Below, piece after piece: positions 1-2,182 of a stretch of DNA of 34,730 bases. The DNA lies in the NCBI GenBank assembly GCA_027492975.1, contig JAPUDS010000027.1:8570-43299 (forward strand), given 5' to 3'. Source of the DNA: Candidatus Saccharimonadota bacterium (GTDB lineage: Bacteria > Patescibacteriota > Saccharimonadia > Saccharimonadales > Saccharimonadaceae). The position numbers and the translations under genes are program-made. How positions within the stretch are numbered: position 1 is the first letter of the stretch; each line of letters starts with the position of its first letter. Below the pieces are notes generated by a model. The model made no database searches, was not told the DNA's origin, and worked only from the letters and a program-made list of their open reading frames with translations.

Positions 1-218
1 GTCCAATAACGCGGCACTGCGTCCTTCACAATACTGCTGAGCAGCGTCCCATGATGCGGATTGCCCGTGATGAACGGCGGACCGTCGTAAAACACGTAGG
101 CGTCATCAGCCGACCGGTTCTCGACCGATTTTTCAAAAGTCCCGTCCTCTTTCCAGCGCTGTACCCAGTCTTTTTCGTACTCCAGTGCTCGCCTGCGTGT
201 TCCGTGTTTGAATTTCAT
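1..218 (-). CDS. ileS: isoleucyl-tRNA synthetase, N-terminal fragment
   Basis: This is the first 72 codons of a class I aminoacyl-tRNA synthetase that charges tRNA-Ile in the cytoplasm; the rest lies beyond the left edge. The translation begins MKFKHGTRRRALEYEKDW. It contains FEKSVENR and then FYDGPPFITGNPHHG, which is the IleRS N-terminal signature including the HxGH-type ATP-binding motif (here HHGT). The ATG at 218 follows a GGGGAG ribosome-binding site at 6-nt spacing. A T-box riboswitch with an isoleucine specifier lies 550 bases upstream on the same strand, with a nuclease-like gene in between. Identification is secure from the signature; ValRS and LeuRS are less likely because of the NPHHGT context and the FEKS block. 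Confidence 0.88.
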   Translation of the reverse strand, partial: MKFKHGTRRRALEYEKDWVQRWKEDGTFEKSVENRSADDAYVFYDGPPFITGNPHHGTLLSSIVKDAVPRYW

Positions 219-234
219 GACTTCTCCCCGTCTA

Positions 235-264
235 TTGACATTATTTTACTACTTGTGGTACAAT
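235..264 (+). promoter_or_regulatory. sigma-70-type promoter facing away from ileS
   Basis: TTGACA (235-240) and TACAAT (259-264) are separated by 18 bp, on the strand opposite the flanking genes. Transcription would start near 271, immediately before an intrinsic terminator, so the product would be only about 45 nt, or the promoter could interfere with transcription into ileS. Confidence 0.55.
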
Positions 265-273
265 GAAGATAGT

Positions 274-316
274 GAACCGATGCAGCGATGTAATGCGCAG
301 CATCGGTTCCTTTTTT
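274..316 (+). terminator. intrinsic terminator between the nuclease gene and ileS
   Basis: A perfect 10-bp stem, GAACCGATGC (274-283) with GCATCGGTTC (300-309), is followed by C and six T residues (311-316) on the plus strand. On the minus strand no T-run follows the stem, so it should not stop readthrough from the T-box transcript into ileS. Confidence 0.7.
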
Positions 317-321
317 GCTGT

Positions 322-729
322 TCATCCTTTTATCTCCTCTACTTTTTCCGTCTTTGTGATGAGCAATATCCTCTTGATATGCTTCTTTATCGCGCCATGA
401 TGTCTCAACTGATTACGTATTTTTGCAATATGTAGCCGACAGCGTCTTGCATCTATTATTACGTTATTTGCCTGTTTCGAAGCTCGTTTGAGCTGTGTCT
501 CTATCGTATGTTTGCTTTTACCGGTCGGGCTCTTGATCTCCCATTCTACTCCTGCAATAGCGATATCGGGTGTTCTACTGGTATCCCTCACGATAAATAC
601 TGCGTCATCCCCCAAATACTCAGCGATGATGCTCGCCGCCTCAATCTCAAACCTCTCTGGCCGCGGGTTAATGGAGGTTGGGATGATAATCTGTTGCACT
701 TTGTAACGCGTACTGTATTTGCGCTTCAT
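322..729 (-). CDS. CdiA C-terminal (tRNase)-like PD-(D/E)XK protein
   Basis: This 135-residue protein resembles the toxic C-terminal nuclease domain of contact-dependent inhibition proteins (CdiA_C type). It shows a basic N-terminus, a helix with E28/E30, then PDIAIAGVEWEIKSPTGK (residues 54-71), which gives the nuclease pattern D55-x8-E64-x-K66. A basic helix rich in Lys, Arg and Gln and the strand NVIIDARR follow. There is no signal peptide and no delivery domain, so it is a free-standing domain and not an exported CDI effector. The start has a good AGGAAAAG site. It lies between a T-box leader and ileS and may be translated from the T-box transcript. No obvious immunity gene is adjacent. 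Activity is inferred from the motif; a restriction-like or DNA-repair nuclease is the alternative. Confidence 0.62.
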   Translation of the reverse strand: MKRKYSTRYKVQQIIIPTSINPRPERFEIEAASIIAEYLGDDAVFIVRDTSRTPDIAIAGVEWEIKSPTGKSKHTIETQLKRASKQANNVIIDARRCRLHIAKIRNQLRHHGAIKKHIKRILLITKTEKVEEIKG

Positions 730-748
730 TACTTTTCCTACTCTTGAC

Positions 749-772
749 TCATATCTTCTTTATTTCATCCAT
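749..772 (-). CDS. possible 7-codon leader ORF after the T-box
   Basis: The mini-ORF MDEIKKI starts at 772, about 9 nt after the AGAGAGGTGG ribosome-binding site that the T-box appears to control, and stops at 749, 19 nt before the nuclease gene. Two of its seven codons are isoleucine (both ATA). It may couple T-box control to the nuclease gene, or be the remnant of an older start. It is too short for coding statistics. Confidence 0.3.
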   Translation of the reverse strand: MDEIKKI

Positions 773-774
773 AA

Positions 775-980
775 ACAAAAACCACCTCTCTTGTTCACGA
801 GAATCCGCGGGTGTTCTTGGGCGGACGGTACCATCTCGTTTCCAAAAGAAGTGATTCTTTTAGCACTCTATTGCCTGATCTATCGTGTCAGTCCCGGCAG
901 GTTCTACTTTTACAAATTTCTTCCTGCTGGCATTTGCGGGTGATAGCCGCTCATCGACCAAAAGTCGAGCGCCGTCTACG
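775..980 (-). promoter_or_regulatory. T-box riboswitch, translational type, Ile (AUC) specifier
   Basis: T-box leaders sense uncharged tRNA. Read on the minus strand, the antiterminator/antisequestrator fold is complete. ACGAGA (839-834) pairs with TCTCGT (802-797). The seven-base bulge TGGTACC (833-827) is the T-box bulge whose UGGU can pair with the ACCA end of tRNA-Ile. GTCCGC (826-821) pairs with GCGGAT (808-803). Stem III is AAAAGAA/TTCTTTT (861-844). Upstream, GCGG-CTATCAC-CCGC (950-936) places ATC (944-942) in a loop as the likely specifier. The 3' arm TTCTC can instead pair with GAGAG of the ribosome-binding site (790-782). No U-run follows, so control is probably translational, as known for actinobacterial ileS leaders. 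An extended -10 box, TGCTATAAT, lies at 993-985. Confidence 0.82.
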
Positions 981-997
981 ATAAATTATAGCACAAT

Positions 998-2182
998 TTA
1001 CGAACGTTTGTGCGGTAAGTAGATTTTCTGACCCGGCTCAAGCGTATATGGAGCCTGTAGCTTGTTCATGATGGCGATTTTGTTCATAGGCATCCCGCTC
1101 TTCCTCGCGAGCTCTTTCAATGTATCGCCTTTTTTGACTTCATATGGACCCCAGAGTGGTTTTTCCGCCGAGCGCCTAAGCATGCGCCGGGCACGCCTGG
1201 ACGCCTCACGCGCTTGTATGATATGCCACGCAATAAAACTGAGAGCTGCAAGCATAAGGAGGCCGAGAATAATAAAGAACCAGACTGAAGGCCAGAAGAA
1301 AATCGTTATCTCTTTGGTTTCCGCACGCAACACATTACCAGCTGTATCCACACCGAATGTGCCAGCTTTTTTGTTATAGACGATATCCGTCTTGACGGTA
1401 TACCAGCCGCCAAAGAAAGGCTGGAACTCGGCGTCATAGTTTACCGAAAAAGTCGTACCAGCAATAACCGGATACTGACCTCCAAAGAATGTTTTCTGGT
1501 CAGCCGACCCTGGAGCACGCAGCTCATTGCCAAACATATCGCGAATATGTACTGACACCGCCACGTCTGCTGAGACATTTCCTTTATTGTTAAGGTCAAA
1601 ACTAACCCACGGTCCTACATGGGTATGCTCGCCCTTTTGATACGTCGAGGCTGCAACAAAATTTGTTATGTCAACTTCTCGATGGATATTTCCCGGCACA
1701 AGAGCAGCTACCCGCACCGCCGTCCGTGTATGCACACGTATGGAACCGGTTGCCTCACCTTCATCTTCTTTCTTCTGGATGACAATGCATCCATTGTGCT
1801 CACCAACGTCAGCTGTTTTTGGGAGCGTTAATGTAAACTCAACGAGCATATTGCCACCTGCCGGGATCATCACTTCGTTTTTCGAAAGCTGAATCGCTTT
1901 TCCAAGATCTGTGCGCTCTTCCACCTCCTGCTTGCAAGTGAAGGCGCCCGTGTTCGAGACCGTGCCGTCTACTGCATACAACTGAACAATCTGATCTGTG
2001 TCGCCGCCGTTACTAAGATATATCTGGTCAGTTTTTGATTCGCCACCATTTAGGGTATAGATAAATATGGATTGCGTACGGGGATTGTCCGGATCTGGAT
2101 TTGCCGGCCTTCCGCCAACACCACCTGAAGCTGCTGAGGCTACCGCGCCAACACCGACTGCAACCACAAGAGCAAGTAACAT
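998..2182 (-). CDS. surface protein with WxLIP/DUF916-like ectodomain, one TM helix and C-terminal LysM
   Basis: The 394-residue protein has a hydrophobic N-terminus (residues 1-18) ending in ASA, an all-beta ectodomain (about 30-290), a membrane helix (298-322), a basic stretch rich in Arg, and a LysM domain (347-390: YEVKKGDTLKELARKSG through PGQKIYLP). The ectodomain resembles the DUF916/WxL-interacting surface proteins, with an ordered Ig-like pair. It carries exactly two cysteines, C83 and C132, and the gene follows VKOR, so a VKOR-made disulfide is plausible. LysM normally binds peptidoglycan, but with one TM helix after a signal peptide it would lie on the cytoplasmic side, which is odd. 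The N-terminus lacks the usual basic n-region; an overlapping ATG at 2208 in another frame encodes MTARWAKR, so a frameshift or start error is possible. Confidence 0.72.
   Translation of the reverse strand: MLLALVVAVGVGAVASAASGGVGGRPANPDPDNPRTQSIFIYTLNGGESKTDQIYLSNGGDTDQIVQLYAVDGTVSNTGAFTCKQEVEERTDLGKAIQLSKNEVMIPAGGNMLVEFTLTLPKTADVGEHNGCIVIQKKEDEGEATGSIRVHTRTAVRVAALVPGNIHREVDITNFVAASTYQKGEHTHVGPWVSFDLNNKGNVSADVAVSVHIRDMFGNELRAPGSADQKTFFGGQYPVIAGTTFSVNYDAEFQPFFGGWYTVKTDIVYNKKAGTFGVDTAGNVLRAETKEITIFFWPSVWFFIILGLLMLAALSFIAWHIIQAREASRRARRMLRRSAEKPLWGPYEVKKGDTLKELARKSGMPMNKIAIMNKLQAPYTLEPGQKIYLPHKRS

Follow-up and report, generated by a model that had tools for sequence, protein, structure and literature searches.

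An isoleucine T-box leader of Saccharibacteria with a putative terminator, and a CdiA_C-family nuclease with a candidate hairpin RNA partner in the variable slot before ileS

Why should the gene for a tRNase-like nuclease stand between an isoleucine-sensing leader and the gene for isoleucyl-tRNA synthetase? This arrangement lies within the first kilobase of a 34,730-nucleotide stretch of DNA (the window), which belongs to a genome of 0.84 Mb (G000) whose relatives are Candidatus Saccharibacteria. A preliminary description had reported the same-strand order of T-box, nuclease gene and ileS, and this order is confirmed, with ileS starting at position 218 and forming an open frame of 1055 amino acids in the genome (Table 1). 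We consider it on balance probable that the locus is a transcription-attenuating Ile T-box operon, whose cargo slot holds a two-gene module composed of a CdiA_C tRNase and an RNA antitoxin. The support for this reading is drawn from comparison among genomes, which establishes T-box homology, a conserved terminator, a cargo slot, the fold and catalytic residues of the nuclease and its pairing with an RNA.

Table 1. Predicted features of the locus, in window coordinates
Feature	Position	Strand	Basis and remarks
ileS, start of gene	1..218	-	Own SD GGGGAG; runs past the window; NCBIfam ileS E 3.6e-15 on the first 72 aa
36-codon ORF	215..325	-	Overlaps by ATGA with the nuclease stop (at its start) and with the ileS start (at its stop); lies antisense to the RNA gene
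Putative small RNA promoter, TTGACA-18-TACAAT	235..264	+	11/12, TG before the -10; directed towards the nuclease gene's 3' end
Small hairpin RNA with terminator, candidate type 1 CdiA_C partner RNA	271..316	+	Stem 274-283/300-309, U-run 311-316
Stand-alone CdiA_C PD-(D/E)XK nuclease P0001, 135 aa	322..729	-	Pfam PF18451 E 6.7e-16; own SD AGTAGGA at about 736-742
7-codon ORF MDEIKKI	749..772	-	Starts right after the U-run; SD and start of relatives lie downstream of the U-run
Putative intrinsic terminator	773..856	-	5' arm 856-843, 3' arm 793-780, U-run 781-773 (TTTTTGTTT)
Ile T-box	796..958	-	Model R1, built without the window: 98 bits, E 1.5e-27; consensus fold with covariation
UGGUACC bulge of antiterminator	833-827	-	Flanks paired
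Ultrashort Stem I of Ile T-box	950-936	-	
ATC specifier	944-942	-	In a 7-nt loop capping a 4-bp stem
T-box operon promoter, -10 element TATAAT	985..990	-	38 nt 5' of the specifier loop; read from sequence

The earlier identification of an Ile T-box with an ATC specifier and a seven-base bulge is well borne out. In addition to a specifier codon in the loop of Stem I and a UGGN-bulge antiterminator, the window leader contains Stem II/IIAB and Stem III, and its fold has a z of -3.7. Testing against a T-box model, as had been suggested, failed with one model and succeeded with another. Rfam RF00230 returned no match to the window leader at either the gathering or a permissive threshold (E<=10), and in 61 relatives it found no genome above the cut-off (0/61), with sub-threshold matches in 17 (best E 3.7e-10) that lie mostly 5' of ileS and in three cases before thrS. 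This miss is a sensitivity limit of the Rfam model and not a defining biological feature. A model made from the ileS leaders of 17 relatives, with the window left out (R1), shows double-sided changes at 18 of its 24 consensus pairs, matches 236 of the 345 genomes of the order and recognizes the window leader. From these sequence features, we are very confident that the leader is an Ile T-box. In 44 of 54 leaders, a -10 box is found at most 75 nt from the specifier; its median distance, 25.5 nt 5' of the specifier loop, implies that Stem I is ultrashort, and the distance of only 38 nt in the window likewise leaves no space for a long one. The gene upstream (998-2182, minus strand) encodes a protein with LysM plus WxLIP_PGBD and ends just before the T-box promoter. 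Within the same clade, cargo-free T-boxes whose specifier appears to be Thr and whose bulge is UGGAACC stand directly before thrS (L073, L075 and L078, in G033:C2, G015:C2 and G025:C1).

How might this leader act on the genes behind it? The preliminary description held that it works translationally, by sequestering a ribosome-binding site. The comparison of leaders argues against this claim: an alternative helix is followed by a U-run, located at most 75 nt right after the antiterminator, in 70 of 71 leaders, and SD and start codon lie 3' of that U-run in 67 of the 71. The 3' arm of the terminator has the 3' half of Stem III as its partner, and in a few lineages (G013, G031), judged by eye, the arm seems to be paired with the antiterminator itself. 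Over 67 leaders, own arms pair with a mean of -13.7 kcal/mol compared with -8.1 (sd 0.36) for permuted ones (0/2000), and the window duplex reaches -17.6 kcal/mol with its own arms and -11.2 with swapped partners. Conceivably, the same helix could instead conceal GAGAGGTGG as the SD of the 7-codon ORF, with the nuclease being translationally coupled to that ORF; GAGAGGTGG does lie 9 nt 5' of an ATG, and the ultrashort Stem I T-boxes of Actinobacteria are known to be translational. Yet this supposed ribosome-binding site is an arm of the conserved and covarying terminator helix, the equivalent arm of close relatives (AGAGAGGTGATTTTT; AGAGAGGTGA) does not serve as an SD, their separate SD being located downstream of the U-run, the U-run itself is conserved, and the nuclease gene of the window has its own SD outside the helix rather than inside a sequestrator. 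We regard translational control as improbable and the 7-codon ORF as probably incidental, and consider it likely, judging from the conserved helix, that the window T-box is under transcriptional control by an intrinsic terminator. Such control is unusual here, because translational control is the mode described to date for T-boxes with an ultrashort Stem I, and transcriptional T-boxes generally have a long Stem I with an elbow-binding IDTM motif (PMC7583486), for which the short distance from the -10 box leaves no space. The Saccharibacteria clade thus appears to combine an ultrashort Stem I with a terminator; if true, this breaks the rule that transcriptional T-boxes need a long elbow-binding Stem I. 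Searches of the open-licence literature, which are weak evidence of novelty, found no T-box work in Saccharibacteria or Patescibacteria.

Is the nuclease then a purpose-built output of the isoleucine sensor? Among the matches listed, and counting genomes with leader and ileS both on one contig and strand, the two are on the same strand and at most 2.4 kb apart in 99/99. They adjoin directly, at 33-79 nt, in 54 of these 99 genomes, and 205-2387 nt are interposed in the other 45, contrary to the earlier statement that such leaders normally sit directly before ileS. The comparison of relatives' upstream regions that had been proposed thereby reveals a slot whose cargo varies from genome to genome: GNAT, NUDIX, methyladenine glycosylase, GDSL, NYN and PemK/MazF-like proteins and, judged by eye, IMPase-like and CYTH-like ones, whose genes commonly overlap the ileS start by ATGA. 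In one such locus (L077, 3219-3773 after reverse-complementing; G023:C2), the first ~16 codons of the PemK/MazF-like gene between T-box and ileS resemble the N-terminus of ileS (MKYKYGSRRRAVEYEKD), which looks like an insertion with gene-start duplication.

Specific recruitment of the nuclease as an effector of isoleucine starvation, i.e., a dedicated T-box-controlled tRNase, would agree with gene order and strand, and with a simple scan from T-box to ileS that found no minus-strand promoter-like site. It is nevertheless highly improbable in view of the neighbours. Among the loci examined, CdiA_C occupies the slot in the window only; the slot cargo of the same-genus relatives G001 and G002 differs from the window's, being a CYTH-like or IMPase-like gene; and two genomes with leaders nearly identical to that of the window (L084 of G032, L089 of G139) have an unrelated ORF of 361-363 aa at this place, the one of G139 being without a Pfam match. 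The nuclease is thus one cargo among many, and it seems to have entered a permissive site opportunistically. Accordingly, of the two consequences drawn in the preliminary description, joint control of nuclease and IleRS gains support, conditional on a continuous transcript, whereas a dedicated link between amino-acid sensing and a tRNase does not.

The assignment of the protein to the PD-(D/E)XK tRNase type, resembling CdiA_C, holds on several grounds. It matches the Pfam CdiA_C domain, 23 relatives all retain residues E28, D55, E64, K66 and Q86, and an alignment-based AlphaFold model (pLDDT 86.8; single-sequence model 38) has the CdiA-CT fold, with 4g6v as its sole significant PDB match (Foldseek E 2.8e-6, TM 0.66). 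That structure shows the CdiA-CT of B. pseudomallei 1026b, a toxin that cuts tRNA-Ala within its acceptor stem and produces uncharged tRNA (PMC9086364). Sequence and model together make the window protein a likely tRNA-cutting toxin. Stand-alone CdiA_C genes are present in 89 of the 345 genomes, with up to 12 per genome. A clustering of the copies near tRNA genes was considered and rejected, since only 2 of 20 loci had a tRNA gene. Searches with P0001 in named genomes found nothing and a plasmid search gave no match; a phage search returned only weak partial matches, some of them in capsid protease/MuF fusions. The CdiA_C-type CDI toxins that have been characterised to date are neutralised by immunity proteins (PMC9086364). 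In the loci viewed, the Saccharibacteria gene stands alone among unrelated neighbours, lacking CdiB/CdiA delivery genes and a CdiI gene.

What, then, might restrain such a nuclease? The preliminary description placed ileS 103 nt behind the nuclease gene; this spacing and the ileS start stand, but the gap is not empty, and a small-RNA partner had escaped the earlier reading. The gap holds a putative plus-strand promoter and a predicted RNA gene of ~45 nt. The RNA is the best match to one of our RNA models, R2, within 1.2 kb, albeit a weak one (11.6 bits, E 0.082), and its assignment also draws on promoter, position and the agreement of nearest relatives, the nearest RNA and the nearest protein both belonging to module L151. 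The 36-codon ORF on the opposite strand may be incidental. A duplex of the RNA with the nuclease mRNA scores -34.1 against -27.5 (sd 2.8) for shuffled sequences, a modest gain that we do not use as evidence.

Across genomes, the association is considerably stronger. Inspection of the sequence 3' of 57 CdiA_C genes showed that a -10 box lies at the stop codon and that a hairpin of ~45 nt and a U-run come behind it; by a fixed definition of -10 box plus hairpin, 44 of the 57 carry it, compared with 14 of 256 control gene ends. Models of two RNA types (R2 and R3) match 35 + 33 = 68 places over 345 genomes, and 43 of these 68 (21/35 and 22/33) lie just after a CdiA_C domain, mostly 35-48 nt from its end, where chance would account for about 1e-4 per match. 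Because both models were built from CdiA_C-linked RNAs, the fair count excludes the seeds, and 19 of 44 matches then remain adjacent (11/25 for R2, four of which are near-copies of a seed, and 8/19 for R3). A 24-nt RNA pattern yielded 12 matches in 84,980 genomes, almost all in Saccharibacteria records, 11 of them 29-58 nt 3' of a CdiA_C gene, and none in viral contigs; Rfam gave no useful match to the nuclease-linked RNA. Covariation is evident in the stems (95% paired, 9 pairs with changes on both sides; 0/500 shuffles), while the sequence of the apical loop is conserved. Protein and RNA similarity are correlated over 47 modules (Mantel r=0.695, 0/5000), although such co-diversification would equally arise from plain joint inheritance of the RNA with its gene. 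In one locus (L009, 2986-3102, minus strand), a LOOT RNA (RF03000, E 3.9e-14) lies about 1.2 kb from the CdiA_C module.

These patterns make it highly probable, as far as sequence comparison can tell, that the hairpin RNA is a real partner of the CdiA_C nuclease, a pairing that is apparently undescribed; no RNA-partnered CdiA_C emerged from searches of the open-licence literature, themselves weak evidence of novelty. The partner hairpin does look like an ordinary terminator, and every hairpin ends in a U-run, most of them being co-directional with the nuclease gene just past its stop codon. One might thus take the hairpins for the genes' own intrinsic terminators, the -10-like hexamers for chance and the RNA partner for nonexistent. 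We deem this unlikely, because the apical loop is conserved in sequence on covarying stems, the combination of -10 box and hairpin is far commoner than at control genes, and some copies (that of the window, L001; L003/L012 and L186, identified by script; L174 and L187, seen by eye) run convergently with the nuclease gene, in many cases behind a TTGACA-TATAAT promoter that is perfect or nearly so. Moreover, orphan RNAs occur without a nuclease gene, one of them beside a CdiA_C fragment. One orphan partner-like RNA lies directly 3' of a gene pair that, judged by eye, resembles BrnT/BrnA (L200, G146:C43).

What a genuine partner RNA does is a separate matter. That it serves as an antitoxin of the nuclease is, in our estimate, slightly better than an even bet: tandem or mixed-type RNA arrays, found in modules of G260, G248, G272 and G336, and the orphan RNAs fit an antidote acting in trans. 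Alternatively, the RNA may activate or guide the nuclease, as in an RNA-guided or RNA-licensed effector. A compact conserved RNA with type-specific pairing, a nuclease of the restriction-enzyme fold superfamily and scattered multi-copy modules would all suit such a role, but the RNAs have no visible variable guide segment, the protein comprises only about 130 aa, its closest fold is a protein-only tRNase toxin and orphan RNAs are more easily explained as antidotes, so that we judge activation or guidance very unlikely.

With the RNA as a candidate antitoxin, we envision a scenario whereby uncharged tRNA-Ile stabilises the antiterminator and polymerase reads through into the nuclease gene and ileS, while the ~45-nt RNA, transcribed convergently from its own promoter, would bind and restrain the nuclease in a manner akin to type III systems. 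Speculatively, head-on transcription in the T-box-on state may lower the RNA, and isoleucine starvation would then bring more nuclease together with more IleRS. More broadly, Saccharibacteria CdiA_C may represent a new class of RNA-partnered PD-(D/E)XK nucleases, either RNA-antitoxin systems with hairpin immunity arrays or RNA-licensed enzymes, which here came to be placed downstream of a transcriptional ultrashort T-box, with the nuclease:RNA balance shifting under isoleucine starvation; we put this forward tentatively, as a possibility with somewhat less than even prospects. If a tRNase-family toxin is indeed held by a hairpin RNA and not by an immunity protein, the range of RNA antitoxins would widen to include a restriction-enzyme-like nuclease fold; the multi-copy modules and orphan RNAs suggest an economy of immunity within bacterial symbionts that are among the smallest.

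How does the locus relate to known systems? With the ileS T-boxes of Actinobacteria (Nocardia, Mycobacterium), the leaders share a very short Stem I that presents the Ile specifier in its terminal loop, a Stem II with an S-turn-like motif, Stem IIA/B, the UGGN bulge and ileS downstream; they differ by a conserved terminator helix and U-run where the Actinobacteria leaders sequester the SD, and by the cargo genes that often precede ileS. The nuclease resembles the CdiA-CT of Burkholderia pseudomallei 1026b (4g6v) in fold, domain family and PD-(D/E)XK type, but it is a stand-alone protein of about 135 aa without CdiA delivery parts, and is accompanied by an RNA gene, with no CdiI-like gene seen. 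The combination of a nuclease and a small RNA with its own terminator, in some cases as tandem RNAs, recalls the type III toxin-antitoxin systems ToxIN, CptIN and TenpIN. Type III toxins have the ToxN fold, and their RNA, arranged in repeats, lies upstream of the toxin gene, whereas the Saccharibacteria pair consists of a PD-(D/E)XK protein and an RNA at the 3' end of its gene, which is sometimes convergent.
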